Source: a virus
Strand: one strand, 5' to 3'
IMG/VR virus record: IMGVR_UViG_3300010354_000207
Span: 1-39,746 of that record
Length of the DNA: 39,746 nucleotides
In this document: positions 1 through 38,457 of the stretch, piece after piece
How the letters are laid out: each line of letters starts with the position of its first letter
Position numbering within the stretch: position 1 is the first letter of the stretch
The notes under the pieces: model-generated
Database searches by the model: none
What the model saw: only the letters and a program-made list of their open reading frames with translations
What the model was told of the DNA's origin: nothing
Translations under genes and position numbers: made by a program

Positions 1-1824
1 ACCTTTGTTTACATTCTTTATTTTGCCCCCATCAGTTTTCTTAAACTGTTTATTCTCCATGATATAGGACTTGTAACACCTGTTCTTGTCGTTCAATTTA
101 TTGGCAGGTGCCTGACCATTTGGTCTGCAATCGTAGTCACAATATCTTTCCCATTCCTTCTGACCGTTTTTAAATCGGACTTTATAGTTAAAGGTCGGTG
201 CATAAAGCGCACCAGAAACCCAATCATTGTAGAATTGGTATTTAACCAATCCAAGGGCTTCAACCAACTGGTTTCTTATACAATCTTCCCAAACCTTCGG
301 CTCCAGTTTCTCTTCACCACATGGCAGCGTTATTTCCCCACCAATAAGGTTTGCTATCAAGTTTAAAGCCTTTGCTATCGTCGCTATAATAGTTATTAAA
401 ACATTTATAATGACAAATAAAAATAAAAGTGCAAAGGACGGTCCACGAACAAACGATGCAATCGCTGCAAAATTCAGAGGGGAAAACGTATAGATTCTGT
501 TATATGGGAAACTATATGCTCCTTCACAAGTCCGCACATCTTTGATTCCGATAAAATTGGCATCATCTTCATCTGAAGCCTTGCTGTACCTCGGTATATA
601 TTGAGAGACGGTATATAGCTTCTTCCATTCCAGTTCGAACAAATCTCTTTCTTTTGTTTCTGCTCCGAAATTAAAGTCGTTATATAAGTTCGGAATCAAG
701 AAGCTACCCGTTCTTGTCGTGCCTTTAAAGAAACTGTAATTAAAATTTTCTGAATTGATTCTAAATCTGGCATTTGCTCTGGTAGGTATTCCAACATTCG
801 GATCCGAACTTAAAACCAATTCTCCATCTTCAGTCGTGACCATTCGCCTCAAATTCATAGGAATCAAGACATTGAAATTACCTTCGTTGTCAATCGGTGC
901 ATCCAGTGGCAGATATTCAAGACCTTCAAAATAATCAGATGCTTTTCGCACCATCTCAATACTTCCACTTGAAGGTTTTAAACTGCAATTATCCCCCATT
1001 TCATTTGAAGGCTTGCATTTTTTGGTTACTTGTTTACCATTTGAATCAGTGAAAAGAGAACCAAAAAATATTGCGTGTGGTGTGAGATTAATTGGCAGAT
1101 TGAAATTCAATTGGGTAATACCCACAGTAGTAATAGCACTGTCACCCCAAAAAGGTATTACTTCTACTGCTTGATTTGAACTTTGAATATGAGGTAATGT
1201 GTCGAGGTCTTTTGAATACTTGAATTTGTTGTTGGAGTCGAAGTAGTTGGACGGCGAACCTTGGGCAATCAAATCATAGGGTTTTAAAGAAACAAATCCC
1301 ACATCACTCAAATCGACATCCATGTGAACCTGTTGTGAACCGACAGGAATACCCACGATCATATAATCTCCACTACCGTTAGTAATGGCATTATATTTAT
1401 AATATTTCTCATAAACTTCTATCCAAACATCGTTGTCCAACAATTCATGTTTATCTGGAAATGTGCCTACTGGAACATGGCAATTAAACTGTTTGTCTTT
1501 CGGTAATAGATTATATCGAACTCCGTCTTTGTTTTTATCAAAAGGTGTTTTGAAATTATAATATGAAGTCAAAAACACATCGTCTTTATCTTCATCACTA
1601 ATCGGGATAAAAACAGAGACTTTTGCATTGGGAATACCATAACCACCGTTCGTAGAAACCCTGCCGACCAAGACACCATAATTGGCATTATGAAGCCGAT
1701 AAACCTCATCGGAAGTAAACTTCAAAGACAAAACCTCCAAGAAATCAAATTTTTGGGGTAGATTAATTACAAGATTTGCACTATTACTGGTAAGGTCTGC
1801 TTTGACCCGTATAGATTTTTCCAT
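1..1824 (-). CDS. Large virion protein next to baseplate genes (C-terminus outside window)
   Basis: Reading from an ATG at 1824 the frame stays open to the window edge (608 residues visible), so the C-terminus is missing. Residues about 35-75 and 125-150 (GVLVGRVSTNGGYGIPNAKV, then GDYMIVGIPVGSQQVHMDVD) look like a carboxypeptidase-regulatory/transthyretin-like beta sandwich, a fold often found in phage structural proteins. A strongly hydrophobic stretch of about 40 residues lies near residues 450-490 and is followed by a Cys-rich region. It sits 29 bp downstream of the gp6-like gene in the same orientation; in T4 the gene after gp6 is gp7, so a baseplate wedge or tail role is plausible by position only. 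A TATATTTG box lies just before the start. The long hydrophobic stretch is unusual for a baseplate protein. Exact function is not recognised. Confidence 0.7.
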   Translation of the reverse strand, partial: MEKSIRVKADLTSNSANLVINLPQKFDFLEVLSLKFTSDEVYRLHNANYGVLVGRVSTNGGYGIPNAKVSVFIPISDEDKDDVFLTSYYNFKTPFDKNKDGVRYNLLPKDKQFNCHVPVGTFPDKHELLDNDVWIEVYEKYYKYNAITNGSGDYMIVGIPVGSQQVHMDVDLSDVGFVSLKPYDLIAQGSPSNYFDSNNKFKYSKDLDTLPHIQSSNQAVEVIPFWGDSAITTVGITQLNFNLPINLTPHAIFFGSLFTDSNGKQVTKKCKPSNEMGDNCSLKPSSGSIEMVRKASDYFEGLEYLPLDAPIDNEGNFNVLIPMNLRRMVTTEDGELVLSSDPNVGIPTRANARFRINSENFNYSFFKGTTRTGSFLIPNLYNDFNFGAETKERDLFELEWKKLYTVSQYIPRYSKASDEDDANFIGIKDVRTCEGAYSFPYNRIYTFSPLNFAAIASFVRGPSFALLFLFVIINVLITIIATIAKALNLIANLIGGEITLPCGEEKLEPKVWEDCIRNQLVEALGLVKYQFYNDWVSGALYAPTFNYKVRFKNGQKEWERYCDYDCRPNGQAPANKLNDKNRCYKSYIMENKQFKKTDGGKIKNVNKG

Positions 1825-1853
1825 CAATCAAATATATGAATATGTTGTTTTTT

Positions 1854-3671
1854 TTAGAAAACAAAATTGATTTTTATATCAACATTCGGGTTTTTAATTT
1901 CGTAGATTTCATCATAAGCAACAAAAATTGTTTGATGTGCGCTGGTATCAATTTGTTTTGTCGAAGCATCAATAAAAGGCATGGTTGTTTGATTGACTGA
2001 ATAATTTCCACCGACCTTGTTGAATATCTTTATTTGGGTTACGTTTAATACGTTGCCGATATTATTTAATGACTCAATCAAGCTGGCCATGTAGATGTTG
2101 TTTCCAAAATACATTTGCTCATTGAAGAAGTCTGTTATTTGTTGGACGGCGGATTTAAGAATTTCAACCCTGTCAGAAAGTTTGTTAATATAGAGGGTAG
2201 CTTCAACTCCCACGTTAATAATTTTTCCATCACGAACCAATATGTAATCATTGATACTTTTAAATTTTGAAAGATATTCTGCTATGTTTGTTTTTAATGT
2301 ACTGGTAGAGTTGTTTGTCAGTTTTGAGTTTTGGTCAACACCGCAAATAACTATTTCGATTTTATTATCATTCTTTGCAACAGATGTGCGATAGGGAGAA
2401 CCGTAGTTGCCAGCCATCAGGCTAACCCTACTGTAATAATCCTGAAGAGTTATACATCTGTTTTGAGAAGCGAAATTATATTTGACAAGGTTTCTAAGTT
2501 CTGGTATCGAAAGTTCGTCTCTGCCACCGAGTGCTGGTAGTGGGTTATTTACTCTCAAAGAACCTTTTACTTGATTATTCTTGGTAGCGTTGGTTCCCAT
2601 GACGATAATATTGACCGTATTAACACTTGTCAATATGTTTGCACCAGCGTTCGTTCTAAGCCCACCGCCTGTTCGATACTTGATAAAAAGTGTAGTGTTC
2701 GACCTCGGAATTTGACCTAAACTAAGATTGTTGATTTTATTATCTAACTGTTCAAATAGCAAATCCGTGTCTGAAACATAATCACTAAAAAAAGATGTGT
2801 CCTCGACACCGTTTCCAAAACGGACAATACAGAAACCTTTGTCTGTATATTCAGTCATAAACTTTTTGTAGACCTTCTCCCATTTGCCGACCATAATGGA
2901 ATCATTATCTGTCATCATTTGAGGTTTAGCCATAAAGACTTCCTTTTCTGCAAGGGAATCTACTTCATACCAAAGATTGGCTGGGTCAGTCCATTCAAGG
3001 ATGGTAGGGAACTGATTGTAGTTCGTGCCATCCAAACTGATAATACTGTCAACACTTAATACGTCGTTGTCGGGTAAAACAATTTCCAAAAATGGTTTTA
3101 CCTCTTCTGGTGTAACAACCTTTTTAAAATATTTTGTAACACCATTGACTACCAATTCCCTTTTCGTGATAGTATATGATAAAATAGTGCCAGTGTTATC
3201 AATATTCGGAATAATTGTTCTGTTTGGAACGCCACTTTGTGAATAAGCAGAAGAAAAGTCTATATCGTTCAATGATTCAAAAAGCAATCCACCCCCAGAA
3301 ATTTGTGCGCCCCTTACAATCAAAGGACAATATGAAATATCAAAACTATCACCAAGCACTGGGACATCCACAGAAAAATCACATATTGTGATGGACGGCG
3401 ATTTGGATGGAATTTTTAACCCATAAGTTCTCGCAATCGCATATAATGACCTTCGTTCTTGTGCATAATCAATTTGTGTTTCTTGAAAAACCCTGTCAGT
3501 ATTAAAAGACAACATATCTCCAACCGCAGCGTTCAACTCCAAAAGCATCATACCAATGCTTGCATCATTAAAGTCGACATAGTAATCAGGGTAATTGGCT
3601 TTAACGAAGTTAATCAATTCACTGCGAATTGAACGGAAGTCACGGCTATAATAATTTATCTTTTTTTCCAT
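1854..3671 (-). CDS. Baseplate wedge protein, T4 gp6-like
   Basis: This 605-residue protein matches the T4 gp6/J-type baseplate wedge family, which joins neighbouring wedges around the central hub. The N-terminus has the family pattern: FVKANYPDYYVDFNDASIGM, followed by LLELNAAVGDMLSFNTDR (residues about 22-60). A C-terminal part carries the GRDELSIPELRNLVKYNFASQ and ITLQDYYSRV segments (residues about 390-425) typical of the gp6/J core, and the last 150 residues resemble the gp6 dimerisation region. The length is close to that of T4 gp6. It lies in a - strand structural block between the gp5-like gene and the large protein that runs off the window. The upstream gap is shared with a divergent nuclease-like gene. 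The motif GGACGGCG occurs twice inside it, antisense to the coding strand. Confidence 0.85.
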   Translation of the reverse strand: MEKKINYYSRDFRSIRSELINFVKANYPDYYVDFNDASIGMMLLELNAAVGDMLSFNTDRVFQETQIDYAQERRSLYAIARTYGLKIPSKSPSITICDFSVDVPVLGDSFDISYCPLIVRGAQISGGGLLFESLNDIDFSSAYSQSGVPNRTIIPNIDNTGTILSYTITKRELVVNGVTKYFKKVVTPEEVKPFLEIVLPDNDVLSVDSIISLDGTNYNQFPTILEWTDPANLWYEVDSLAEKEVFMAKPQMMTDNDSIMVGKWEKVYKKFMTEYTDKGFCIVRFGNGVEDTSFFSDYVSDTDLLFEQLDNKINNLSLGQIPRSNTTLFIKYRTGGGLRTNAGANILTSVNTVNIIVMGTNATKNNQVKGSLRVNNPLPALGGRDELSIPELRNLVKYNFASQNRCITLQDYYSRVSLMAGNYGSPYRTSVAKNDNKIEIVICGVDQNSKLTNNSTSTLKTNIAEYLSKFKSINDYILVRDGKIINVGVEATLYINKLSDRVEILKSAVQQITDFFNEQMYFGNNIYMASLIESLNNIGNVLNVTQIKIFNKVGGNYSVNQTTMPFIDASTKQIDTSAHQTIFVAYDEIYEIKNPNVDIKINFVF

Positions 3672-3717
3672 TTCAGAATTTAATCTATAAATATTTTATA
3701 TAAAAATCGGATTTTAT

Positions 3718-3749: not shown

Positions 3750-3768
3750 CAGCTAAAATTTTAAAACT

Positions 3769-4281: not shown

Positions 4282-5491
4282 GGACATTTTTATTTAACAG
4301 CCTTTGTAAATCAAAATTCAAAAGTTTTAACATTTGGTCATCTGGAACTGCCCTCATGCCAGGGTAAGGATGGACGTGACTTGAAACAACTTGACGTAAA
4401 ACATCAAGAAATTCAATTAATCTGTCTCCATAAGGGACAGGATGTGCTTTATCAGCAAGATTCAAGAAATCGGCATCATCAACCAAATCAGGTTGTTTTT
4501 TAACATTAAACTCTTTATTTAAATGGCTTACCAAAAATATTTTATCTGCTGCCATTAAAGAGGTAGAAAAATTCAAAGTTTTTTGAGTCAACTCCGTCAC
4601 CTCTGTACTCACATTGGTTGTCTCATTTGAATAAATCTTTGGCAGGCCATTTAAAGAAGAATCAGTGTACACCAATTCCCAATAAACATAGACATTTTGA
4701 AGACCAAGCAATTCAGATTTTAACTGCGCGGTCAATTCACTTTTCGTAGGTTTATTGTAGATTTGAGTGGAAATGATTTTATTTTTCTCCTTATCTTTTA
4801 TCTGTATTGTAGCCTTGGTATCTGCCAAAAAAGAGACAATAAACTGTGTCTTCGGGGCGATAAAAACAGGGGCCAACTTTGTTTTTACAGTTGCCTTTTT
4901 TTCAGACTCTACTGGAAACTTTAAAGTAATATAAGCTGGGTTGACCTTGTTAAAGGTTAACGGTTTATCATTTTCATGTGATCCTACTCTAAAAAGCAAT
5001 TGGTTGGCTTTCAAAAATATACTGCTATTATTCCTGCTGTTAATAGAAATATCTTCTTTGGAGGCGTACACGCCTTTAGATGCAGGTATGACAGAAGTTT
5101 TTTTCGGAGCCTTTATTGCCCCGTCAGGATAATGTGAATTGCTTTCAAGAGCAAACGGTTGATAATCGACATTGTATATATTAGAATGAACAACACTTAC
5201 CCAATACCTCAAATCTTTGGTATTTGAATCAAGGCTGGTGTATATGTTCCTGAACATCACCGTGACCCTTTCTCCAACCTTCGGCAAAGCCCTAAAAAAA
5301 GAGAAACTAAAAAGCGGTACGCAAACAGGTAAATCATCATTCGACACTGTTTTATCCAATTCAGGAATCCTGACCTTGATAACCCCATTTTCTTCGCCGT
5401 CCAACACACTAACAACCTCACCCTCCCAAATGACTTTGGAATAAGGTTTTTCAAATTTACTACTGCCATATTCAGTTCCGATTAATCTCAT
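4271..5491 (-). CDS. Baseplate hub/spike protein, gp5-like OB domain
   Basis: A 406-residue protein with an N-terminal OB-fold domain of the gp5/VgrG type at residues about 22-110: WEGEVVSVLDGEENGVIKV, RIPEL, a loop, LPVCVPLF, and ALPKVGERVTVMF ending in RYWVS. A second segment (EDISINSRNNSSIFLKANQL, residues about 148-168) resembles the repetitive part that follows the OB domain in T4-type hub proteins. The C-terminus has SSHVHPYPGM, a His-rich turn found in other phage baseplate proteins. No lysozyme domain like that of T4 gp5 is visible, so any tail-associated lytic activity must come from another protein. It overlaps the convergent nuclease-like gene at its 3' end and is 6 bp downstream of the next structural gene. 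Confidence 0.7.
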   Translation of the reverse strand: MRLIGTEYGSSKFEKPYSKVIWEGEVVSVLDGEENGVIKVRIPELDKTVSNDDLPVCVPLFSFSFFRALPKVGERVTVMFRNIYTSLDSNTKDLRYWVSVVHSNIYNVDYQPFALESNSHYPDGAIKAPKKTSVIPASKGVYASKEDISINSRNNSSIFLKANQLLFRVGSHENDKPLTFNKVNPAYITLKFPVESEKKATVKTKLAPVFIAPKTQFIVSFLADTKATIQIKDKEKNKIISTQIYNKPTKSELTAQLKSELLGLQNVYVYWELVYTDSSLNGLPKIYSNETTNVSTEVTELTQKTLNFSTSLMAADKIFLVSHLNKEFNVKKQPDLVDDADFLNLADKAHPVPYGDRLIEFLDVLRQVVSSHVHPYPGMRAVPDDQMLKLLNFDLQRLLNKNVLTG

Positions 5492-5497
5492 GTTAAT

Positions 5498-5905: not shown

Positions 5906-7215
5906 CTGATAAATCCAGCCAAGGAGGTTATTTGTAAAACATACAACTTTAATTGTTCCTGTTGCTTTTTTATATTACTTTCTGCAATCAACTTTGTCAA
6001 CTCCCTTGTGATAATCGTGACCAAATATCTGACAACTGCACCCAGAATATGTTTTTTTACTATATCGAATATAAAGTTCTTATGTTCTTTGAAAAACCCA
6101 ACAAAGCTGACATCCACATCAACTTTCTTAACCATTTTCCTAAACAACTTTATAAACAAGATTTGTTTGGGTGAAAATAATTTTAAAGTTATTGACTTGG
6201 TTATATTCCTGAAAAACTCCAAGAATATATTATTTTGATAAGAGCCTTTGTCGGACGGCGAAACTGTTGGGGAGGTCTGGTTTATCAGGTAATCGAAATT
6301 GACATTATAAATATCTTCGTTATACTGGCTGACATTTACGAGGTCGTCAACAAAGCCTTGCAAGAGGTTATAATCGTATTTTACATAACTTAATTCACAG
6401 TCAACATATTCAAAATAACCTTCTTTCTTTTGTTTAATTCTTCTTTCAATTTCTTCATCGTCGAAACTATAAAAAGAATCATCTACCGTAACATCATCGA
6501 ATATTTTATCAAGAAGGATATTAAATTGCTCTCTATTTTTCAATCCTCTTTTTGAAATCGCATTTGAAGCTAAAGAACTTAGCGTACCAAAAATACCATC
6601 GACAAAATCAGAGATAATTGTAACATCATTGAAAAATTGAACTTTGCTGAAATAAGCATTGACAAAATCATAAACAGTTTTTCCCTGAAAACTTGGGTCC
6701 AGTTTTATGTAGAAATTTTGATTGGAATAACTAACCAAAAGAATATCGTTCCAATTATACTCAACACCTGGATTATTGATTGCCTGATAAAGCAATTTAT
6801 TCAGGTTGTTTTCATAGTCTTCATAATAAAACTTTCCGAGTTCACTATCTGGGTCAATCTTCAAGACTTCAAAAAAATCAATTTCTTTGACACTAAAACT
6901 AACTCCTGTAAAAAACTCATCAGGTATTTCAACGTCGACAGAACAGAATATATAATCGACAATATTCTGTTTGAAATATGAAATCAAATCCGCAGATAAA
7001 GACTTTAATTCAGTTAAAAGAAAAAGTTTAAATTCATCTTTAACCTTTTGCCCCCCAAAGAAAATCCTGAATAAATCCAGAGTAAACTCTAAACTATTCC
7101 TCGGTTTAGAAATTGAGGGGAGAGAATTAGTAAACGAGATATTAGTGAAAGCCTCGTTTGTAATCTTCAACCCCTCAATTTTACCCAATAAAATTTGTTT
7201 GGGGTCAATCGGCAT
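5902..7215 (-). CDS. Hypothetical structural-cluster protein (437 aa)
   Basis: A 437-residue acidic protein rich in Phe, Tyr, Asp and Asn. No family was recognised. The C-terminal third contains long amphipathic helices rich in Lys, Ile and Leu (HILGAVVRYLVTIITREL, residues about 385-405), ending in a Gln-rich helix. It overlaps the upstream gene by 11 bp and the downstream gene by 4 bp, so the genes from 7612 down to 4271 read as one transcription unit. The neighbours suggest a baseplate or tail component. One GGACGGCG copy (6253) lies antisense, in the Ser-Pro-Ser register. Confidence 0.55.
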   Translation of the reverse strand: MPIDPKQILLGKIEGLKITNEAFTNISFTNSLPSISKPRNSLEFTLDLFRIFFGGQKVKDEFKLFLLTELKSLSADLISYFKQNIVDYIFCSVDVEIPDEFFTGVSFSVKEIDFFEVLKIDPDSELGKFYYEDYENNLNKLLYQAINNPGVEYNWNDILLVSYSNQNFYIKLDPSFQGKTVYDFVNAYFSKVQFFNDVTIISDFVDGIFGTLSSLASNAISKRGLKNREQFNILLDKIFDDVTVDDSFYSFDDEEIERRIKQKKEGYFEYVDCELSYVKYDYNLLQGFVDDLVNVSQYNEDIYNVNFDYLINQTSPTVSPSDKGSYQNNIFLEFFRNITKSITLKLFSPKQILFIKLFRKMVKKVDVDVSFVGFFKEHKNFIFDIVKKHILGAVVRYLVTIITRELTKLIAESNIKKQQEQLKLYVLQITSLAGFIR

Positions 7216-7612
7216 TTAAAAGTAAATTGTTTTTCAGTGCTTGTCCTCTCAAGAACTCCAAATCTTTTTCTGTCAAAATTACATCATCCGATGTTTCATT
7301 TTCCGAAACATCTTCCACAGCAGTTCTTTGTGACATTATAGTCGTACCATAGAACTTTACCAGTTCGATTTTGAGTTTGTTATTGGTGTTGATAATGTCA
7401 AGTGCTTTATTGTTAAGAGCGTCCAAAATCTCTGTTTCCTTCAATGTCCTGACAGTATCTTCTTCCCCTTCGACTTGTCGTCTTTCGGTTATTTCATCTT
7501 CTCTTTTACGGATAAATGAAAGTGCCCTTTTTTCCTGACGTTCAAGGTCAATAAAAGTTGTCTGAATTTTTTCTAAAACGCCGTCCAACGACGCAGGTAT
7601 TTTGGATTTCAT
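7205..7612 (-). CDS. Hypothetical charged coiled-coil protein
   Basis: A 135-residue, highly charged protein. Residues about 8-95 are predicted to be mostly helical with heptad-like spacing (LEKIQTTFIDLERQEKRALS and following), suggesting a coiled coil. No family was recognised. It is the first gene of the - strand structural unit, 25 bp after the sigma-factor gene, and is preceded by a TATAAATA late-promoter-like box at 7625-7632. One GGACGGCG copy (7579, - strand) encodes Asp-Gly-Val near the N-terminus. Confidence 0.5.
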   Translation of the reverse strand: MKSKIPASLDGVLEKIQTTFIDLERQEKRALSFIRKREDEITERRQVEGEEDTVRTLKETEILDALNNKALDIINTNNKLKIELVKFYGTTIMSQRTAVEDVSENETSDDVILTEKDLEFLRGQALKNNLLLNAD

Positions 7613-8456: not shown

Positions 8457-9240
8457 AAAGTAATTTACGGTCTTCCGTAAAATAATATTCTTTCTTGGCA
8501 ACATCCTGATAAAAGCGTTGTTCAAGAACTGGAAGAGCGGAATTAATGCTCGAAATGGAACCTTCCCTATTTACAGTATGGCGAATAATGAAATGTGGAA
8601 TTACCATAACCTCTGCTTGTTGGTATAATAATCGGAGAAAAAATTCAAATTCAAAATATTTTTTGATACTGTGCTTAAAGCCGACATTTTTCACGAAAAG
8701 ATCCGTGTTGTAAACAGCGCCGACAAAAGAAGCTGTCATCAAATTTCTTAGGGATTCGAAATCGAAGTACCCTTGTTTTTCTGTGTAATTCAGATTCCAA
8801 ACTGCCTCATTACACATACGGACAAAAGATTCACCGTCGAAATCAAGACTGATAGGTATGAATACTGAAACAGATGGATAAGAGATATTATACCTCTTCA
8901 CCAGCTCTACATAATTCTCATTCAATACATCATCGTATTGTACAATGCTGAAAAGTTTTGTTTCGATGGAGTGGACGGCGAAATTAACAATCTCCGTATA
9001 ATTTGGTAGAGGGATATTTCGGATTTCCTCTGGGAGGTCAACAAAAGAGATATTCAAATCATAAATGTTCATATTATTGATTTGTTCCTTCAAATCCTCA
9101 AAGGTAGCAACAAGGATGTTAAAATCATTGTCTTTTTGTTTGGAAAGAGACTCAAACATATTTGTGATATACTTTCGGTCTATATCCAAAGCATGAATAG
9201 GTACTAATATAGTCAGAAATTCTGAATTTTTATTCTTCAT
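8434..9240 (-). CDS. GT-A glycosyltransferase, family 2-like
   Basis: A 268-residue protein with the layout of a family 2 (GT-A) glycosyltransferase. The nucleotide-binding start is FLTILVPIHALDIDRKYI (residues 8-25), and the acidic metal/nucleotide-sugar motif is IVQYDDVLNENYVELV (Asp103-Asp104). It overlaps the upstream GT-B gene by 11 bp and is the last of a run of three glycosyltransferase genes and one unknown. The substrate cannot be read from the sequence. Modified phage DNA, a virion protein, or host surface polysaccharide are all possible. The C-terminal codons and stop lie within the 12-bp hairpin. Confidence 0.7.
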   Translation of the reverse strand: MKNKNSEFLTILVPIHALDIDRKYITNMFESLSKQKDNDFNILVATFEDLKEQINNMNIYDLNISFVDLPEEIRNIPLPNYTEIVNFAVHSIETKLFSIVQYDDVLNENYVELVKRYNISYPSVSVFIPISLDFDGESFVRMCNEAVWNLNYTEKQGYFDFESLRNLMTASFVGAVYNTDLFVKNVGFKHSIKKYFEFEFFLRLLYQQAEVMVIPHFIIRHTVNREGSISSINSALPVLEQRFYQDVAKKEYYFTEDRKLLYEEQAQG

Positions 9241-10333
9241 CTTGATATTTTTTTATTGTGTTATCAATTTTTGAAATTTTACTTTCAAATATTCCACTGA
9301 AAGCATTTTTTGTTTGGGTGACAAAATTATCTTCAGTGTAGAAGGTCGGAGTGGCCTGCATACTGTCATAGAGATTTTGTGGCACATCACCCAAAAGCCA
9401 AGCCTCCATAAACTTCGCAATGTAATCTGGCAGACCCAAAACATTTGAAACATAGATTGCATTATCCGCAAGGTTGGCACCCTGTTCGGTGAAAACCTCT
9501 GCCCATTCTGGAATAAGGTCTGGTATCTTCATTATACAAGGGACACCAGAAGCCATTGATTCCAAAGGGAATGTTCCGAATGTAGCAAAATCATCAATCC
9601 AAACAGAAAGACAAGTTTCTTTAAGTGCCTCCGCAAAGTCTTCTTTTTTCATACCTCCAAGTGTCCTGAATGTAATCCATGAATACATAGGATACTTTTG
9701 ATAGAACAATTTAACAGCTCTTTCAAGGTCATCTTGTGATCTTGAGATAATACTTATGATTGGTTTTTGGGGGAATGTGGACGGCGAAAAATAAGAGGGG
9801 ATTGCTGGGTTTACCACAAAAATGTTTTTTACAGGTTGGTATTCCTGCAAGAAAACTTTCATTTTATTAGACGTAGTAATCACATTATCCACACCATAAT
9901 AACTCCAGTTCTCCCCAGCATTCAGGTACTTGAAAATAAAAGAATGTGATTGACAAATAACGACCGTATCAGAAGGGAGCTTCGTTTCATGTAGTTTTTT
10001 GATTAGGTCAGAGAAAAGCTCTGGTACAAAGAAAGTATCAGCACCAGTGATTTTATACTCTGTATTCTCATTCATCGCGGAAAGAGGTATATGTTTAAGA
10101 GACGAATATCTCTCACCCATCCAAGATTCAACTCCCACGAATTTGTCTTTTTCATGTACTATAATGACAGGATAACCTTCGTCCTGCATAAGCGCCGCCA
10201 TTTTATATATCTGTTCTACAGACGACATAGGCGCTCCAGCAGTATCGGAAACGAAAAAGAATAATCTACCTTTTTTGTTTTCGACCGCTGATTTAAGTTC
10301 TTCAAGTTTTTGTATTACTTCTTTATTGGTCAT
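9230..10333 (-). CDS. GT-B glycosyltransferase, family 4-like
   Basis: A 367-residue protein with two Rossmann-like halves. The N-terminal acceptor domain starts near residue 22 (GRLFFFVSDTAGAP). The C-terminal donor-binding domain contains FGTFPLESMASGVPCIM near residue 250, the Glu-containing loop that binds the nucleotide sugar in GT4 and related GT-B enzymes. It probably transfers a sugar within the same pathway as the flanking GT-A enzymes. It overlaps its neighbours by 4 and 11 bp, implying coupled translation. One GGACGGCG copy at 9779 lies antisense. Acceptor and donor are unknown. Confidence 0.75.
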   Translation of the reverse strand: MTNKEVIQKLEELKSAVENKKGRLFFFVSDTAGAPMSSVEQIYKMAALMQDEGYPVIIVHEKDKFVGVESWMGERYSSLKHIPLSAMNENTEYKITGADTFFVPELFSDLIKKLHETKLPSDTVVICQSHSFIFKYLNAGENWSYYGVDNVITTSNKMKVFLQEYQPVKNIFVVNPAIPSYFSPSTFPQKPIISIISRSQDDLERAVKLFYQKYPMYSWITFRTLGGMKKEDFAEALKETCLSVWIDDFATFGTFPLESMASGVPCIMKIPDLIPEWAEVFTEQGANLADNAIYVSNVLGLPDYIAKFMEAWLLGDVPQNLYDSMQATPTFYTEDNFVTQTKNAFSGIFESKISKIDNTIKKYQDEE

Positions 10334-10980: not shown

Positions 10981-12497
10981 GGCGTAATTAATATGAATTT
11001 TTTTAATGCGTTTCTGTATTTTTCAATCTTGGGGCCGAGGACGTTATTAAAATCAGCTTGCAGCCTTTCCAGTTGTTTTGGGTCTTCATTTCTGGTGAGA
11101 GATTCATAATGATAACAAACCGCGTCCCCTTGATAGTAATTGATTTTATTTAAGACTGCAATAGATTCGATATTGAGTACGACATCTTCAAAGCATTCGG
11201 TTGTCTGCTCATTAAACCCTTTCAGTTTTTCAAATTCTGTTTTCTTCATCAAAAGGAATGCCCCTGTGCTACCAACAAAAGTTCCAGTGACTTTACTTTT
11301 ACCAGAGTAGTAACTTTTCAAACCAAAGTGTGTGACACCGACAATACCAGCTTTTTTCCCGTAAATAACGATACCCGCGTGTTGGACCCTGTTATTAGGA
11401 TACAAAAGTCTGCAACCAACGGTTCCACAATGTTTTCTATTCTTTTGGTATGTCGATACCATCAAGTCCAAAGCATTGTTTATCAGTTCAATGTCGTTAT
11501 TGCAGAACAACAAAAGTTCTTGGTCTGAAAAACAATCTTTTACAATATCGTTATTGTTCTTTGCGAAGTTGTAATAAGGGAGTTTATATATCCTTAGTTT
11601 TACATTCTCTTTCGATACAGATGAGATGTATTCCCTTAACTCAATCAATGACTGTGAAGAGGAGCCTGTGTCACCTATAACAATATCAAGATTTAAAATC
11701 GGATTTGTTTTTTCTATAAGGGAAGATACACATTTTTTTACATAGTCTATTTTGTCTTTAGTAAGAATAACAACACCTATGTTAGTTGGTTTGAGGTCGA
11801 CTTTTGGTTGGACGGCGAAATGGGATAAATCAGGTGTGCATGATGCTGGCAGATTTTCCCCATATTCCTGCAAGAAAATTGCTCTGTTGTTATGCCAAGA
11901 TTGAGTGATTGGGCCGACACTTTTATGATGGACTTTGAAAGCAGTTGTTACACCAACCTTCACACCATTTAAAAAGTTCTCAAGGCTAAAGCTCACATCG
12001 TAAAAGTGAAATCCTGTTATCTTCTCGTTGAAACGTGCTTTTATCCTGTCTTTTTTCAATGCGATAAAAACGCCGTCCACCACACAAACATTCATAACAA
12101 AATCATGGTCGTCGGAAAAGAAAGAATCATATTTGATAAGTTTCCCATTATCCATTTTTTCATGTGAAACAATCCCCGCAAGATCACCCCTGTTTTCCCA
12201 CCAAACCCCACTCTTATTCATACTGGCTGAACCAGCCGCACCAATGATACCGTAGTCGGTTGTTTCAAAAATGTTTATAAGTTTTTCATCCCAACCATAG
12301 GGGAGGACAATATCATCATGTGCAAGAACCAATATTTCGCCGTCCAAACACATATCCAAAGCCTTATTATAACTTTCAGTCAAAGAATATTGTCCGTCAT
12401 TAATAAATTCATGTATTCTTACATCAGTTTTACAAGATTTTTTAACCTTATTTTGATATTCTGATGCAGCACTTCGTGTAGAATAAAAATAGAGCAT
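10977..12497 (-). CDS. Two-domain family 2-like glycosyltransferase
   Basis: A 506-residue protein counted from the ATG at 12497 (MLYFYSTRS). A longer frame to 12575 would overlap the divergent small gene and looks spurious. It contains two GT-A-like halves. The first has EILVLAHDDIVLPYGWDEKL (Asp-Asp motif) and a later HFYDVSF segment. The second starts at NIGVVILTKDKIDYVKKCV and has IVIGDTGSSS, LLFCNNDIEL and GSTGAFLLMKKTEFEKL, the canonical family 2 order. A bifunctional glycosyltransferase, or one active and one degenerate half, is likely. It is the first gene of the glycosyltransferase run. A TATATTTG box lies 28 bases before the start, and TATAAATA abuts the ATG. Three GGACGGCG copies fall within 535 bp here (11810, 12071, 12338). 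Confidence 0.75.
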   Translation of the reverse strand: MLYFYSTRSAASEYQNKVKKSCKTDVRIHEFINDGQYSLTESYNKALDMCLDGEILVLAHDDIVLPYGWDEKLINIFETTDYGIIGAAGSASMNKSGVWWENRGDLAGIVSHEKMDNGKLIKYDSFFSDDHDFVMNVCVVDGVFIALKKDRIKARFNEKITGFHFYDVSFSLENFLNGVKVGVTTAFKVHHKSVGPITQSWHNNRAIFLQEYGENLPASCTPDLSHFAVQPKVDLKPTNIGVVILTKDKIDYVKKCVSSLIEKTNPILNLDIVIGDTGSSSQSLIELREYISSVSKENVKLRIYKLPYYNFAKNNNDIVKDCFSDQELLLFCNNDIELINNALDLMVSTYQKNRKHCGTVGCRLLYPNNRVQHAGIVIYGKKAGIVGVTHFGLKSYYSGKSKVTGTFVGSTGAFLLMKKTEFEKLKGFNEQTTECFEDVVLNIESIAVLNKINYYQGDAVCYHYESLTRNEDPKQLERLQADFNNVLGPKIEKYRNALKKFILITP

Positions 12498-28913: not shown

Positions 28914-29417
28914 ATGGAAAATGAGAATGAAAAGAGTGTGCAGTATGTGGACGGCGAAATGCAACTTTCAAAATATTTGAAGGTAAAGGATTTCACATAC
29001 TCACCAACAGCAGTGACAAATAATATTGATAACAGGTTGCCAGTTTCTTTGCTGGAAGATGCAAAGAAAATCGCGGCAATCTATGACCGAATTTACGACC
29101 AATTTAAAGGCAAGGTTAAATTGAACTCTGGATATAGAAGTCTTGCACTCAACAGGCGGGTAGGAGGCTCCACCACATCCCAACACGTCAGGGCACAAGC
29201 TATTGATGTGGACGGCGTAAATGGTGTAAAAAACTCCCAGATTTTAAGTTGGGTATTGAGGAACGTAACCTATAACCAGGTCATACACGAATACGGGACT
29301 GCAACAGAACCTGCTTGGGTTCATATCGGATTTGGAACTAAAATGCAGTTTTTGAAAATCGGTGTTAAGGGGACGAAAGCGTTAACCAATATGCTTGGGG
29401 AGGAAGTTGATATTTAA
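28914..29417 (+). CDS. M15-family peptidase endolysin
   Basis: A 167-residue zinc peptidase of the M15 (D-Ala-D-Ala carboxypeptidase/VanY-like, M15_3) family, used by phages to cleave peptidoglycan peptides at lysis. The zinc and active-site motifs are visible: LNSGYRSLALNRRVGGS (Arg75 region), TTSQHVRAQAIDVDG (His91 and Asp98), and PAWVHIGFG with His137. No signal peptide is present, so export would need a holin. It is a single + strand gene with a TATAAATA box in front, convergent with the tagged protein at 29423. Two GGACGGCG copies (28949, 29210) lie in it. Confidence 0.88.
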   Translation: MENENEKSVQYVDGEMQLSKYLKVKDFTYSPTAVTNNIDNRLPVSLLEDAKKIAAIYDRIYDQFKGKVKLNSGYRSLALNRRVGGSTTSQHVRAQAIDVDGVNGVKNSQILSWVLRNVTYNQVIHEYGTATEPAWVHIGFGTKMQFLKIGVKGTKALTNMLGEEVDI

Positions 29418-29422: not shown

Positions 29423-29971
29423 TTAATCTCCAAGCAAATCGTTTATTCTATCCAAAAATTCTTTTTTATCAAAGGCAACTTTTTTGTCGTAAGCGGCAAA
29501 ATCTGATTTTATGTCATTATAACCGATAGGATATAAATTGCGTAACATTATTGGACGCTCTTCATAACTTCCACCACCTTCGATGTCATAATCTCGATTA
29601 AATTCATCAAATCTGACTGTGACGTAAGGTTCATTGTTATCACTGTAACCTATGTTTGGATATAACCAACCAGTTTTTCCAGCAAACTGTTGACTAAATT
29701 TATGTTCTATCGGTTGTTCATTTGCAGGCTTAATTCTAACCTTTATCATTAACCTGCCAAATGTCCCACCATTTTCTTTATAAATCTTGTCTAAACTCAA
29801 CTTCTTTAGTTCATTTTCATTACCACTGTCGGATAATAATGCTAACTTATCTATATCTGGCAAGTTTTTAAAACCACCTACTTTATTTATCTTATCCAAA
29901 GCCTTGTCAACATATTGATTTTCATTTAAACATTTATGCACGGCTTCCTGTATAAATTCTTTTGCTTTCAT
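29423..29971 (-). CDS. Tagged internal virion protein, non-ART
   Basis: A 182-residue protein starting MKAKEFIQEAVHKCLNENQ, the same head-targeting tag with L-N-E at residues 15-17 (Cys instead of Ser at 14). After the tag comes a helical segment (KALDKINKVGGFKNLPDIDK), then a beta-rich domain (residues about 75-150: GRLMIKVRIKP, GWLYPNIGYSDNNEPYVTV), possibly a small barrel. No ADP-ribosyltransferase motif is seen. It lies 13 bp after the gp25-like gene, in a late structural setting, as expected for a head-packaged protein. What it does after injection is unknown. Confidence 0.55.
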   Translation of the reverse strand: MKAKEFIQEAVHKCLNENQYVDKALDKINKVGGFKNLPDIDKLALLSDSGNENELKKLSLDKIYKENGGTFGRLMIKVRIKPANEQPIEHKFSQQFAGKTGWLYPNIGYSDNNEPYVTVRFDEFNRDYDIEGGGSYEERPIMLRNLYPIGYNDIKSDFAAYDKKVAFDKKEFLDRINDLLGD

Positions 29972-31606: not shown

Positions 31607-31615
31607 AATTTTAAA

Positions 31616-32311
31616 TCATTTATTTTTAATTTTTACATTTAAAGGATTTAAAACCATTCTAACCGTTGACTTTATTTTACCACCTTCATAAGAATCCAAA
31701 ACACCAATAACATCTATACAATCAAAACCTAAAAAGCTACCTATCGCGGCAATTACATTAGTTTTAATGCCAGTATTTCCTTGAACATAATAATTAAACA
31801 TAGCTATTAATTTATCAATCTGTTCTTCGCTTACTCCTGCATTAATAAAACCTCTTTTAACTTTTTCTACGGGTATAAACCTGAATCTATCACCAGTCGC
31901 ATCTATCCTAACTAATTTATCACATTTGACATCCACTTCATAAACTTTTTGGACGGCGTTTTGGTAATCAAAAGCTATTTTAGGGTTGGCGTAAGTTTTT
32001 GCGACAGCATATTTGTCAGTTAAAAAAAGAGGTTTCTTATATGTAAACTTATTTTTTAAATCGAAAACCAAGTTAATAACTCTATGATATTCTTTATTAT
32101 CTCCATTTTCTGATGCAATTCTTATTTGCTCTTGATAGTCCATTAATTTATTCGGGTCGGTAACATAATCAACTGTTACAGTATTATCAAAAAAACCTCC
32201 ATTTCTTTCAATTTCTCTGGAATCGGCAGTTCCATGATACCAAGTCTTTGTAGTTTTTTCCTCATTCAAAGACTGGAGAACATTACTTGTTATAAATTCT
32301 TGTGGTTTCAT
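31616..32311 (-). CDS. Tagged internal virion protein, ART-like 3 (catalytic Glu not evident)
   Basis: A 231-residue protein beginning MKPQEFITSNVLQSLNEEK, the shared tag with L-N-E at residues 15-17. The rest looks like an H-Y-E-type ADP-ribosyltransferase: TWYHGTADSREIE (His26), KPLFLTDKYAVAKTYANP (Tyr101), a strand VQKVYEVDVKC, and a closing STVRMVLNPLNVKI. In that last strand the position expected to hold the catalytic Glu is Thr216 or Val217, so it may be inactive, use another residue, or be a binding protein. Like the other tagged proteins it would be packaged, cleaved after Glu17 and injected. It shares one base with the thioredoxin start and lies 10 bp from the next promoter. One GGACGGCG (31951) lies antisense. 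Confidence 0.6.
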   Translation of the reverse strand: MKPQEFITSNVLQSLNEEKTTKTWYHGTADSREIERNGGFFDNTVTVDYVTDPNKLMDYQEQIRIASENGDNKEYHRVINLVFDLKNKFTYKKPLFLTDKYAVAKTYANPKIAFDYQNAVQKVYEVDVKCDKLVRIDATGDRFRFIPVEKVKRGFINAGVSEEQIDKLIAMFNYYVQGNTGIKTNVIAAIGSFLGFDCIDVIGVLDSYEGGKIKSTVRMVLNPLNVKIKNK

Positions 32312-32635: not shown

Positions 32636-32646
32636 TGTTTTGTTTA

Positions 32647-33822
32647 TTATCCGTCGCAACTTAAACAATTTGGATCCATAGCACTTGAAGCAATATCACC
32701 ACGCAAAACAGATTCGGTTCGCATATAATATAAAGTCTTTACACCTTTCTTCCATGCTTCCAAGTGAACCTGATTAATCCATTTGGGGTCTGCTGTACTT
32801 GGAAATGCAAGGTTCAAAGAAACAGCTTGGTCAATATATTGCTGCCTGATACCCGCCTGTCTTACCAAATCCAATTGGTTAATTTCTTTAAAGGTCTTAA
32901 AAACATCTTTAATTGAAACACCGTTTTGTGTATATTCTTCCTCTGTTATCTCTGACCTTTTTGTAATCACGCCGTTATAATAACACCAATCATCCAAGAA
33001 AGAAAGGTTTTGAACAGAACCCAAGTCTTCTAAAATCTGGTCCCAAACCTCTTTGGTGTCTTTACCGATAAGTCTCAACACTTTTTCAAGCTCTGGATTC
33101 TTCCTGATAAAAGTCCCCTTTGCCGATTGTTCTGTATAGACATTTGCGGCCCAAGGTTCGATTCCAGCACTTACGTTTCCAGATAGTTTACTATTCGATA
33201 CTGTGGGAGCTATTGCACGGAGGTGTGTGTTTCTGTAACCGAAATCTTTACACCAAAGTGGTTCACCGTATTCTTTAGCCATATCCATACTTGCCTTTTC
33301 AGTTTCAAGTTTCAATTGACTGAAAATTTTTCTTGTATGAAATTGTGCCTGAAGACCCTCAAAAGGAATGCCTCTTTGTTGGAGGTAGGTATGGTAGCCC
33401 AATGTGTTGTGAATTACATATTTTATTTTACCATTTGAACTTGTAAAATAGTTATGGTGTTCATCAACAGTTAAGTCGGCATATTCAATATCAATATTTT
33501 TGGGTTGCCATATCTCGCTAATTGTATTCAGTGTATTGTGTTCACTAACCATTACATTTCCGACAATTAACTCGTCCGCTCTTACATAATCCAATTTACC
33601 TTCAGATGTCATTACAAGCGTTGGATGCCAAAGTGAAGTATAAATAATACTACCACAATCCAATTTAATTGCAATTTGATCTTTCACTTCAACAATTGGT
33701 TTGTGTGTTGCAGTAATCATCCTAAAACAACTTGTTCTTTTATCTACATCATAAGACAAGACAAAATCACCAACTTTAGCATCTTCAATTGCTATTTCTT
33801 TTGTTATTATTTTAATTTTCAT
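32647..33822 (-). CDS. nrdA: Split-intein C-half fused to C-terminal ribonucleotide reductase alpha
   Basis: This 391-residue frame starts at an ATG that overlaps the end of the N-half gene. Residues 1-139 are intein: AIEDAKVGDFVLSYD, the block B region IIYTSLWHPTLV with T-x-x-H, block F DIEYADLTVDEHHNYFTS, and block G KIKYVIHN, followed by Thr as the first extein residue. Residues 140-391 are the C-terminal NrdA part: TLGYHTYLQQRGIPFEGLQA, GYRNTHLRAIAPTVSNS, and the final DPNCLSCDG with the redox Cys pair that thioredoxin reduces. Protein trans-splicing with the N-half would give a reductase of about 605 residues. It lies upstream of thioredoxin and a terminator. Confidence 0.82.
   Translation of the reverse strand: MKIKIITKEIAIEDAKVGDFVLSYDVDKRTSCFRMITATHKPIVEVKDQIAIKLDCGSIIYTSLWHPTLVMTSEGKLDYVRADELIVGNVMVSEHNTLNTISEIWQPKNIDIEYADLTVDEHHNYFTSSNGKIKYVIHNTLGYHTYLQQRGIPFEGLQAQFHTRKIFSQLKLETEKASMDMAKEYGEPLWCKDFGYRNTHLRAIAPTVSNSKLSGNVSAGIEPWAANVYTEQSAKGTFIRKNPELEKVLRLIGKDTKEVWDQILEDLGSVQNLSFLDDWCYYNGVITKRSEITEEEYTQNGVSIKDVFKTFKEINQLDLVRQAGIRQQYIDQAVSLNLAFPSTADPKWINQVHLEAWKKGVKTLYYMRTESVLRGDIASSAMDPNCLSCDG
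33406..33822 (-). mobile_element. C-terminal half of split intein
   Basis: Codons 1-139 of the downstream nrdA piece. They carry intein blocks B, F and G and the terminal His-Asn before Thr. The first residues (MKIKIITKEI) appear to repeat the strand that follows Cys1 in the N-half (SKIEIV), placing the functional split very close to the N-terminus, between blocks A and B. Confidence 0.75.
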
Positions 33823-34114
33823 GTTCTTTATTTTTAGAAAATATATCCTTTAGTTTGTTTTTTAAAGTATTTGAAAAACCTATAATCCAACCATCATCTA
33901 AATAAGAATTTAAGTTGTCTGGTTTAATATATTTATGTTTTCCATCTTTACTAATACAAATATTTTCAACAGGTGTAGAAGACTTTTCTATTTTTATTAA
34001 ATCGGCGACTTTTATTTTTTCGCCGTCCACTTCAATAACATCATTTACATTGTATGAAACACCATCAATTTCAACTGATTCAACTATTTCGATTTTTGAA
34101 CCTTTCGCAACACA
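33812..34114 (-). mobile_element. N-terminal half of split intein with homing-endonuclease-like tail
   Basis: One hundred codons from Cys1 (CVAKGSKIEIV, block A) to a stop. No block B is present. Residues about 50-82 of this half (ENICISKDGKHKYIKPDNLN and SYLDDGWIIGF) match the G-x-x-K-x-I-x3-x-L-x2-Y-L-x2-G-W-x2-G pattern that accompanies HNH-type homing endonucleases as a DNA-binding (NUMOD-like) motif. No nuclease catalytic motif is visible. Confidence 0.65.
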
Positions 34115-34333
34115 ACCAAGCCCCAATGCGCGACCCTTTTCAGCAGACCTGACAGCATTTTCAAACCCTTTCATGTTCTTTGCTTTTTGGATGAACTCTT
34201 CCAAAACGCCGTCCAAAAACCAAGTCGCAGTATAAATCAAATCAGTATCTTTCCATTCATCATATTTTGCAAGATTCAAAGAAGACAGACAACATACAAA
34301 AGAATGCTGTTCATCAGTGTGCAGGGTGATTTC
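33812..34333 (-). CDS. nrdA: nrdA exon 2 with split-intein N-half
   Basis: This continues exon 1 (34587-35426) after removal of the group I intron. The first 73 codons are NrdA: EITLHTDEQHSFVCCLSSLN with the second active-site Cys, then DLIYTATWFLDGVLEEFIQK and ending EKGRALGLG. The remaining 100 codons are the intein N-half and stop. An ATG inside the intron at 34384 could start an unspliced reading, but the residues it adds are intron sequence. The stop overlaps the start of the C-half gene (ATG within the last codons, +1 frame), suggesting coupled translation so both halves are made in similar amounts. Confidence 0.82.
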   Translation of the reverse strand, partial: EITLHTDEQHSFVCCLSSLNLAKYDEWKDTDLIYTATWFLDGVLEEFIQKAKNMKGFENAVRSAEKGRALGLGCVAKGSKIEIVESVEIDGVSYNVNDVIEVDGEKIKVADLIKIEKSSTPVENICISKDGKHKYIKPDNLNSYLDDGWIIGFSNTLKNKLKDIFSKNKEHEN

Positions 34334-34586
34334 CATTTTGTTATCCCACAAGCTCTTTATCTTGTGGCTCTTATGGTTTCCCATAAGTTCAGACTATATC
34401 ATCATCTCAATGAGATGTCGGGCACTCGTGTCAGCTTCATCAGTGTTCTACTGGTGTGCTGTTAGTCGTTGAACCTTCCACATATCCCTACGTGGCTTGG
34501 CTGCTGATTAGCATATCTAAAAGACTTAGCCTCCCAGCAATTCACCCGATTTTCCGTTTATATCACTACAAACGGCTCCAAAATTT
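34334..34586 (-). ncRNA. Self-splicing group I intron in nrdA
   Basis: A 253-nt intron. P1 is exon GCTCT paired with IGS GGAGC, giving U:G at the 5' splice site, which follows the T at 34587. P2 is CCGTTT/AAACGG. The P and Q strands are AATTGCTGGGAGGC and AATCAGCAGCCAAGCC. P7 is formed by R GTTCAACGACTA and S TAGTCTGAAC. P9 is CTTATGG-GAAA-CCATAAG, followed by a CCACAAG/CTTGTGG hairpin. The intron ends in G at 34334. The 3' exon GAAAT can pair with ATTTT of the IGS loop (P10). It has no internal reading frame of size. Removal restores N-I-C-S-E in frame. Confidence 0.92.
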
Positions 34587-35426: not shown

Positions 35427-35457
35427 AATTTAAAGTTTTTAAGATTTGAAAAAAAAA

Positions 35458-36456: not shown

Positions 36457-36496
36457 ATTAAAATTGTTTAGTGTGAATAAATAATCCAAAACAAAA

Positions 36497-37882
36497 TTAT
36501 TGCTTTGGGTTCTTTTCATAAGCAGAAGTTACATTGTGGTCTTCGACCTTAATCTTAACCCTGCTATTATCAAATTTGACATCATCGAATTTTACACGTC
36601 CAGAACCAAGGCGATTTTTCCAGATATTGATATTTGCTTTTCCACTCAATATCTGCTCCTCATCCTTTCCAATCGTCATCATAACGTGTGTTATTTTTTG
36701 AAGGTCTCCAGAACCAGAAAGCATACTTGGTTCAAGGTCACGGATGCCGTGTGTACCTTTTTTACCTTGGAGCAATACCCAAGCAGCGCAATTGAAATTC
36801 GTTTCTGAAATAGCGTCTTCAATCTTTCTTAAAATTTCTGGACCAGCAAGGTAATCTTTATCACCGTAATCGTTCTTGTCACCTTTGATACATTCAAGAT
36901 AATCAATAATGATTAAATCCAATTTATACCCTTGCACCTTTTCGACGTGAAACAACGCTTGCTCGATATTAGACCAGTGTGTGTCGATTGCATCGAACTT
37001 TTTTACAATAAATTTGCCACCAGCTTCTTCACCTTTACGCAAAATACTCTTGCAGTGGGTTTCAATGATATGTTTGTTTTTAACATTCATTGATTCATCA
37101 ATTGAAAATCCACTCCAGTTGGCTTGCAATTTTGAGAAAAGGTCGTTTTGTGTTCCCTCAAAAAACGCATAAAAGACTGTTTTACCCTCAAGAAATGCTG
37201 TGGTAGCGATGACAGCAGAAAAGGTTGTCTTACCTACACCTGTACCAGCACCAACTAAAATAAGGTCTCCACGTGAAGGACCACCCTTGATTGCATCATC
37301 AAAAGGTTTTCCAAGCCCTGTCGGTATCGGAATGCGGGTTGTATCATCAACCAACTTAAAAGTCTCGCTACTGATAAGCAATGGCTTTTTGGAGGTATCA
37401 TTAATCTCGATTGCCTTTCTTACTTTTTCTACCGCAGAATCACCATCCTTAATTTTTCCTTTTTTCCATTCGTTTTTAACACTCTCGACAATATGAATAA
37501 AATTCTGTTGCTGAATGAAGTTCCTCGCATTATCTTTTACGTGGTCTGCATTCTCTATTACAACGTGTTCAATATCGTTGAGGAACTGAAAAAACACTTC
37601 CCTGTCTGTACCATACTTGGCAGAATATATTTCCCTGATGGTGTCATAAAAGGGGATACTACGGTATTCCACGTAGTATCCCTTGATAATCTCAAGAAGT
37701 GTTTTTGAAAATGGAAGGGAAAAGTGTTTCGGATTTAGAATGCCTATCATAGAGACACCATATTCAACGTCCCTATATAGTTCTTTTCCCTTCAACAAAC
37801 GCCGTCCAATCAACTGGTTAAAAAACTTGATTTCAAATTTTTCACCAAATACCCCCAAATCTAATGTCTCATTCAAATCCAT
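36497..37882 (-). CDS. Replicative DNA helicase, DnaB/gp41-like
   Basis: A 461-residue RecA-fold helicase of the DnaB/T4 gp41 type, which unwinds DNA ahead of the polymerase. The N-terminal helical domain (residues 1-160) is followed by PTGLGKPFDDAIKGGPSRGD, Walker A LILVGAGTGVGKTTFSAVI (residues about 208-226), Walker B LDLIIIDYLECIKG near 300, and GSGDLQKITHVMMTIGKDE near the Gln/His motif H4. The C-terminus is charged. No separate primase is seen in the window. It heads the nrdB-nrdA genes and follows an unknown gene by 20 bp. A GGACGGCG copy (37800) encodes Gly-Arg-Arg, the only use of that register. Confidence 0.9.
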   Translation of the reverse strand: MDLNETLDLGVFGEKFEIKFFNQLIGRRLLKGKELYRDVEYGVSMIGILNPKHFSLPFSKTLLEIIKGYYVEYRSIPFYDTIREIYSAKYGTDREVFFQFLNDIEHVVIENADHVKDNARNFIQQQNFIHIVESVKNEWKKGKIKDGDSAVEKVRKAIEINDTSKKPLLISSETFKLVDDTTRIPIPTGLGKPFDDAIKGGPSRGDLILVGAGTGVGKTTFSAVIATTAFLEGKTVFYAFFEGTQNDLFSKLQANWSGFSIDESMNVKNKHIIETHCKSILRKGEEAGGKFIVKKFDAIDTHWSNIEQALFHVEKVQGYKLDLIIIDYLECIKGDKNDYGDKDYLAGPEILRKIEDAISETNFNCAAWVLLQGKKGTHGIRDLEPSMLSGSGDLQKITHVMMTIGKDEEQILSGKANINIWKNRLGSGRVKFDDVKFDNSRVKIKVEDHNVTSAYEKNPKQ

Positions 37883-37902
37883 GTCATAAATACTTTTAAA
37901 TG

Positions 37903-38457
37903 TTAACGATAAAGTTCTTTACTATTAACAGAAAAAGTATTTACAGGTTGGAAACGCTTTTTGAACCTGTTATAGTACTTGTTCATAGAAAGGGTTTCTT
38001 TGAGTGTCGTCCGAATACCTGCATTGATTTCATTATCTTTCCATATAGGGATGATGGAGAGGTTTTGGACGGCGAAAAAATCGTTGGCGTAGATTTCGTG
38101 CTCATACAATACACGGACTTCTTTGTTCTGGGAAAGTGCACCGTTTTCCCTAACAGCAGCCTCATGGTCTACAAGTTTGAAAATGTAACGGGAATTTGGG
38201 TCTTGCTTGGGAATCGGCTCGTCAGAATGCTTGTAAAGCATATCCTCCGTGATTCGACGCATATAGTCTTGAAAAATATTGGTAATCTTACCAAAACATT
38301 CGACTATCTGCGTAGAATTTTCAACTGCCAAGTCTTCATTACCGAACTCTTTAAGAGGGGTAAAAAAGTTAAGATTGGTTAATTCTTGGGCCGTCCTTCC
38401 GTTGTGATAAATCACATGGAAGGTAAACCTTGCCTTAAAATCTTTTTGTTCAGTCAT
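37903..38457 (-). CDS. Hypothetical replication-cluster protein
   Basis: A 184-residue protein with no recognised family. It has a beta-rich start (ARFTFHVIYHNGRTAQEL), a helical centre and a basic end (NKYYNRFKKRFQPVNTF). It lies between the 5'-3' exonuclease (8 bp overlap) and the helicase (20 bp gap), so it is probably expressed with replication genes and could be a helicase loader or accessory protein by position. Nothing in the sequence proves that. One GGACGGCG (38067) lies antisense. Confidence 0.5.
   Translation of the reverse strand: MTEQKDFKARFTFHVIYHNGRTAQELTNLNFFTPLKEFGNEDLAVENSTQIVECFGKITNIFQDYMRRITEDMLYKHSDEPIPKQDPNSRYIFKLVDHEAAVRENGALSQNKEVRVLYEHEIYANDFFAVQNLSIIPIWKDNEINAGIRTTLKETLSMNKYYNRFKKRFQPVNTFSVNSKELYR

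Follow-up and report, generated by a model that had tools for sequence, protein, structure and literature searches.

A selected, strand-read DNA word in the genomes of one phage lineage, possibly a signal for lagging-strand priming

The window considered here, that is the whole stretch of DNA analysed, is a virus record of 39.7 kb in which one short word recurs through unrelated genes, and the question that it raises is what such a word is for. A preliminary description had counted a 12-bp word 29 times. This number holds for the core GGACGGCG, of which 29 copies lie over the span 1249-38074, whereas the strict 12-mer KTGGACGGCGWW occurs 24 times (0.04 expected). Dinucleotide shuffles yielded a mean of 0.03 copies of the core and never more than one. 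Nearly all copies in the window (28 of 29) have the form TGGACGGCG, and when synonymous codons were permuted inside each gene, a shuffle which keeps every protein and the codon usage, the mean count of this form was 1.6 and the maximum 4. The excess thus survives, and the difference between 1.6 and 28 means that neither composition, protein sequence nor codon usage explains the word; chance or composition as its source is rejected by both kinds of shuffle. Applied to the larger contig sets described below, the same codon-preserving null gave 4.7 copies against 70 observed, 2.2 against 34 and 6.5 against 67, the enrichment over this expectation being 10-20 fold.

These figures bear directly on the most ordinary explanation, a favoured Leu/Val-Asp-Gly-Glu peptide or a codon bias. 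About half of the copies do read [LV]DG[EV] in frame, but about half are antisense or stand in other registers, and the codon-preserving shuffles refute a coding effect, to which we give next to no credence. The five codon registers reported earlier for the window were found again (15, 1 and 1 copies in the three sense registers, 7 and 3 in two antisense ones), as was the strand split of 19 copies of the core on the plus and 10 on the minus strand. Relative to the genes, 38 copies are sense and 29 antisense in species A, 18 and 14 in species B, and 37 and 24 in species C (the species are described below). Overall the word occurs about once per 1-2 kb (0.5-0.9 per kb), on both strands and in all gene types.

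On the plus strand of the window the word is found as copy 1 (TTGGACGGCGAA, 1247-1258), copy 2 (TTGGACGGCGGA, 2142-2153), copy 3 (ATGGACGGCGAT, 3391-3402), copy 5 (TCGGACGGCGAA, 6251-6262, the sole copy without a T before GG), copy 7 (8971-8982), copy 8 (9777-9788), copy 9 (11808-11819), copy 12 (13297-13308), copy 14 (17197-17208), copy 16 (21113-21124), copy 17 (21194-21205), copy 18 (23549-23560), copy 19 (24395-24406), copy 20 (GTGGACGGCGGA, 25514-25525), copy 22 (ATGGACGGCGAT again, 27395-27406), copy 23 (28947-28958), copy 24 (29208-29219), copy 25 (31949-31960) and copy 29 (38065-38076). The minus strand carries copies 4 (5393-5404), 6 (7577-7588), 10 (12069-12080), 11 (12336-12347), 13 (16477-16488), 15 (20130-20141), 21 (25546-25557), 26 (34019-34030), 27 (34205-34216) and 28 (37798-37809). 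The stretches earlier described as free of the word, at 34.2-37.8, 13.3-16.5 and 17.2-20.1 kb, are the three largest gaps in the window. Copies 20 and 21 form an inverted pair within a gene for a DNA polymerase of the elongation-subunit type (23738-27841, plus strand). Copy 28 lies in the gene for a DnaB-family replicative helicase (36497-37882, minus strand), where it takes the rare sense register that reads Gly-Arg-Arg; a 5'-3' exonuclease gene is located at 38450-39469 on the minus strand. Copy 26 falls inside the intein-like insert of nrdA.

Some other features of the window deserve mention. The gene nrdA is split by intein-like sequence at 32647-34384, with splicing-domain motifs in two ORFs, and its counterpart in species C apparently contains a GIY-YIG-like insert. 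Four otherwise different proteins (17482-18189, 22565-23302, 29423-29971 and 31616-32311) have in common an N-terminal signature of about 17 amino acids, M-x-x-x-x-F-I-x-x-x-V-x-x-S/C-L-N-E, which resembles the capsid-targeting sequence of the T4 internal head proteins. The last of the four looks like an ADP-ribosyltransferase, and all of them may travel in the head and enter the cell together with the DNA. Adjacent ORFs at 18208-19268 share a near-identical C-terminal stretch (MDDYFR..ILDVMVKEFLPILEAKLKTNNNYGKN) and are probably the result of a recent tandem duplication.

When the copies are pooled, the site proves to be larger than the 12-bp word first described, and asymmetric. It reads approximately K-K-N-G-K-T-GGACGGCG-A-W-W, with one flank position at which neither G nor C ever occurs. 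On the 5' side of the word's own strand, and only there, lies a C-poor tract of G and T (keto bases) about 15-20 nt long, with a weak tail to about -40; the bases 5' of copy 7 (8952-8970, plus strand, about -2 to -20) are an example. Under a null in which proteins and codon usage are preserved, the excess of keto bases reaches a z of 16 at -6 to -2, 14 at -12 to -7 and 11.5 at -20 to -13, falls to 5-7 at -40 to -21, and is near zero on the 3' side. Each of species A, B and C shows the tract when taken by itself, as do sense and antisense copies alike and the window on its own (z 9.8); at the control sites, which encode Asp-Gly without the word, it was not seen. Exchanges between G and T make up 73 of 203 changes in the tract at sites shared between species, but 29 of 264 in the downstream sequence (pooled p 9e-11). 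This excess suggests selection on the keto character as such, part of the effect following from the tract being keto-rich. Gene conversion between copies, which had been named earlier as a possible source of the excess, is rejected: similarity between copies ends with the motif and its tract of keto bases, no information is left from position +12 onward, and the encoded peptides and frames differ.

The copies are also arranged along the genome in an orderly way. On each strand taken separately the spacing is more even than random (summed coefficients of variation 4.39 against 5.69), and none of 20,000 simulations was as low; with species A and C only the p value is 0.003. These p values are not fully independent, as the species share ancestry. 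The evenness of the two strands combined is that expected of independent strands (shift null, p 0.43), and the mean spacing per strand is 2.2-4.9 kb. Evenness on each strand, together with the independence of the strands, indicates that the process using the word probably reads one strand at a time.

Comparison between species argues that the copies are under selection, as many are kept at the same place while others turn over. Among the alignable copies of species A, the corresponding position holds an intact copy for 19 of 51 in species C, where 2.4 are expected, and for 8 of 19 in species B, where 0.9 are; from species B to species C the figure is 27 of 33 (5.2 expected), so that retention is 5-15 times that of chance. 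Copies which are not shared usually correspond to well diverged sequence in the relative, showing that sites are gained and lost. Variants with a single mismatch are few, yet above expectation, and deviate mostly at the last base of the core; two bases past the core all 48 of them, like every perfect copy, have A or T.

Outside the window the excess continues: 50 copies are found on a 66-kb contig that is about 97-98% identical to it, some in sequence that the window does not reach, and further contigs were assembled into species by pair-pattern scans of IMG/VR and flank extension. Species A (the window and contig G021) has 70 copies in 84 kb, species B (G005) 34 in 72 kb and species C (G022) 67 in 136 kb, and a further contig of 7.8 kb, L146, has three; at least four species bear the word. 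Contig L146 was the one new contig obtained when two peptide patterns of the tail sheath were used to scan for wider relatives, a search that otherwise returned the same lineage. Species A is about 67% identical in DNA to species B and C, which are about 78-80% identical to each other. Judged by their genes (RNR, a DnaB-like helicase, SbcCD, UvsX/RecA, UvsW-like and UvrD-like helicases, and baseplate and tail proteins of T4 type), these uncultured viruses are large T4-like myoviruses, probably phages of Bacteroidota. In a 29-kb contig of species C (G028) the start is repeated at the end, which is possibly an artefact of assembly closure or a true repeat.

A search with NrdB returned 80 contigs, and the word is confined to those of the same lineage. 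A contig with an 80% identical NrdB, otherwise unrelated, has no copy, and other wordless contigs share the RNR gene. Flavobacterium phage immuto (Immutovirus) and Cellulophaga phage phi14:2, which come closest among cultured phages by NrdB (53-56%), contain no copies. Pair scans of IMG/VR for unrelated phages with the word, which are of limited sensitivity, returned the lineage and some GC-rich contigs with few copies, and no AT-rich contig enriched in it. Nor were words of comparable strength found in immuto, MaF61 and a dozen contigs; one strong word, in contig G002 (L096), was discarded as a dispersed signal, being the repeat of a Gly-Ser-rich, collagen-like protein from about 30 to 1250.

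Among the contigs scanned, enrichment was seen only in the lineage and in one unplaced contig of 8.3 kb, G024 (L105). Most copies elsewhere are single and inside genes, and this contig is the exception in a test for inverted pairs between genes: eight of its ten copies form four such pairs, at 63-104, 537-573, 4716-4748 and 5950-5995. Its promoters are of Bacteroidota type and it carries a DUF932 gene; it has no match among the other contigs, and may represent the phage's own early region or a further element residing in that phage's host. In species C (L123, 7890-7944) three copies stand directly after a stop codon in a hairpin-like array between tail genes.

On the evidence of the sequences, then, the word is a genuine, selected, strand-read genome-wide signal of one phage lineage, undescribed before as far as could be found; of the papers listed, none has it in the context of a phage. 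The earlier proposal of a functional genome-wide DNA signal is upheld in its general form by the codon-preserving nulls, by conservation with turnover, by the one-sided tract and by the even spacing on each strand. The strand-indifferent roles offered with it do not fare so well: given strand-wise evenness and a one-sided flank, packaging, a nucleoid protein or a double-strand tag fits poorly. Base modification, also on that list, is a conceivable role that drew no support. Priming of DNA synthesis, which was absent from that list of candidates, fits most of the features and is most likely the function, although unproven.

A candidate reader of the word is encoded by the phages themselves. The contigs of species A (G001, G021) and C (G022, G003), which cover the gene, as the species B contig does not, encode outside the window a protein of about 1370 amino acids with a PF08800 BT4734-like domain (best E value 1e-13, over the cut-off in both species) and an SF2 helicase region. 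BT4734-like proteins are listed as a family of the AEP superfamily (PMC5862659), and by this assignment both species have a phage-encoded AEP-superfamily primase. Metal motif I (IYMDVD) is common to A and C, while the histidine of motif II is not evident. No solved relative was found by sequence, and the model of the primase domain was poor (pLDDT 41) and gave no match in fold searches; a helical domain of 107 amino acids that follows it was modelled well (pLDDT 81) and had no match in the PDB. In the word-bearing contigs examined we found no DnaG zinc ribbon. The wordless immuto, phi14:2, G009 and G014 gave DnaG-type hits, and PF08800 was not over the cut-off in them.

AEP primases of mobile elements require a word in the template and begin synthesis on the base that adjoins it on the 5' side. 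For NrS-1 this word is TTTGGTTA or GTGG; for pRN1 it is GTG, and the primer made is 8 nt long (PMC8718748, PMC8076596). In T7 the GTC site of the primase has keto bases on its 5' side, binding is tighter and primers are longer when the flanks are rich in G and T, and Okazaki fragments are about 3 kb long, with a range of 1-6 kb (PMC12839067). Since the known primases of this superfamily initiate next to a word in the template, on its 5' side, a priming signal appears the best explanation of the word, and we hypothesize, with a probability of roughly 0.42, that it is a genome-wide lagging-strand priming signal of the phage's own primase. It would be the single-strand (template) recognition site of the BT4734-like AEP primase fused to an SF2 helicase. 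As a strand is exposed as lagging-strand template, the primase would bind KTGGACGGCG with its A/T flank and initiate a primer at the word or immediately 5' to it, and the G/T-rich tract would be copied into an A/C-rich primer. Such a site would be too specific for chance occurrence, so that the genome would have to carry it on both strands, at about the spacing of Okazaki fragments and in any gene.

A tract on the 5' side only, independent strands and a spacing of 2.2-4.9 kb all match this model of lagging-strand priming; both strands are served at an Okazaki-like spacing, the means per strand lying near the length in T7. The word is asymmetric, with the keto tract on one side; its binding by the primase, the start of priming at this place and the use of the tract as template for the primer are steps which we infer. 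It is possible, though we would put it at somewhat less than even, that lagging-strand priming is set by a long exact word of the phage's own AEP primase-helicase, with at least 70 tract-bearing sites written by selection at even intervals into both strands. Several observations count against priming. With an exact core of 9 nt and flanks the site is longer than the known AEP sites (3-8 nt) and would be the most specific of them; the AEP assignment comes from one Pfam domain, with no evident motif II histidine and a poor model of the domain; the keto tail to about -40 exceeds the length of a primer; inverted pairs between genes are not predicted; and evenness and density also resemble uptake sequences, as the one-sided G/T tract also fits a Chi-like site.

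This last likeness gives the reading that explains the tract and the orientation nearly as well as priming does. A helicase-nuclease of the host or the phage (of AddAB/RecBCD type, or the phage UvrD-like helicase with a RecB-family exonuclease) would cease degradation on reaching the word from the 3' side, and the G/T-rich end of the resulting 3' tail would steady the filament of a recombinase. The tract does sit on the side of the future 3' single-stranded tail, and RecA filaments are steadiest on TGG-rich DNA (PMC3763553); a permuted linear genome would need both orientations throughout, and the phage encodes genes of the UvsX/RecA, SbcCD, UvrD and exonuclease families. Known Chi sites are 5-8 nt long, a length that the core of 9 nt and its flanks exceed, and a tract of hundreds of bases and a host-wide signal would be predicted where about 15-20 nt are found. 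If the host reads the word, other phages of that host should carry it, and none came up in the IMG/VR pair scans, limited as their sensitivity is. Going by titles among the references of PMC3763553, the G/T islands around Chi in E. coli were ascribed to codon usage, an account which is excluded for the word here. We regard a Chi-like site as unlikely.

Rather improbable, in our judgement, is that the phage acquired the word at the density of a host that takes up or retains DNA bearing it. The density of one per 1.2-2 kb, the length, the AT flank and the occasional inverted pairs (G024 and the triplet of species C) resemble the DUS of Neisseria, which lie 1.1-1.5 kb apart on average and form inverted pairs at terminators, but DUS are classically regarded as excluding phage DNA (PMC2397512). 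Unless G024 is such a case, the word did not turn up in any unrelated phage or element, and a strict scan of GTDB for inverted pairs returned only a local repeat in a Clostridia MAG, with a pattern that would miss the inverted pairs seen here. To our knowledge a one-sided keto tract of 20 nt is not a feature of DUS. We similarly doubt that the copies are dispersed double-stranded sites for a phage protein, be it a repressor of the stoperator kind, a transcription factor, or a protein that packages or compacts the genome. The length and near-exactness of the motif would suit such a protein, and cluster A mycobacteriophages have 20-30 asymmetric repressor sites of 13-14 bp genome-wide, mostly in one orientation relative to transcription (PMC6550527), whereas here sense and antisense copies are mixed and mostly inside genes. 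A protein indifferent to the strand is not expected to produce strand-wise evenness with independent strands, and the genes present, for RNR and for replication and recombination of T4 type, point to a lytic phage.

If priming is the function, the word would offer a readable map of the lagging-strand start points in a replicating genome, and the specificity of a primase would have shaped the coding sequence of a whole virus. If the site is instead Chi-like or otherwise read by the host, it would represent a new host signal, probably in Bacteroidota. The selection on copies, the G and T exchange in the tract and the spacing on each strand make the alternatives testable by simple oligonucleotide assays.

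Genome-wide signal words are known in bacteria as Chi, uptake sequences and KOPS, and we know of no phage-owned, strand-read word system with a structured flank. Like Chi (RecBCD/AddAB) the word is oriented and over-represented and has a G/T-rich 5' side, but it is longer and denser (0.5-0.9 per kb), has a tract of only about 20 nt, and belongs, as far as tested, to one lineage. With DUS of Neisseria and USS of Pasteurellaceae (words of 9-12 nt) it shares its length, an occurrence of one per 1-2 kb whatever the strand or type of gene, and some inverted pairs between genes; it differs in residing in a virus lineage, in its one-sided G/T tract and in that no bacterial genome was shown to have it. 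Stoperators of cluster A mycobacteriophages are likewise tens of near-identical asymmetric sites spread across a phage genome, yet they follow transcription, unlike copies lying inside genes in both orientations. The order helicase-nrdB-nrdA is common to the phages with the word and immuto, whereas immuto and phi14:2 are wordless and have a DnaG-type primase in place of the BT4734-like one. The sites of primases are shorter (NrS-1 PrimPol, TTTGGTTA or GTGG; pRN1 ORF904, GTG; phage 1706 GP55, CCAAC; T7, (G/T)2GTC; that is 3-8 nt, against 9 exact nt and flanks here), and they have not been reported as written by selection at even spacing, whereas the word is enriched 10-20 fold. What the word has in common with the sites of AEP and T7 primases is an asymmetric form read on one strand, a keto-rich 5' side as in T7, a candidate AEP primase-helicase encoded by the phage and a spacing near that of Okazaki fragments, and in those known systems synthesis starts at or 5' of the word.
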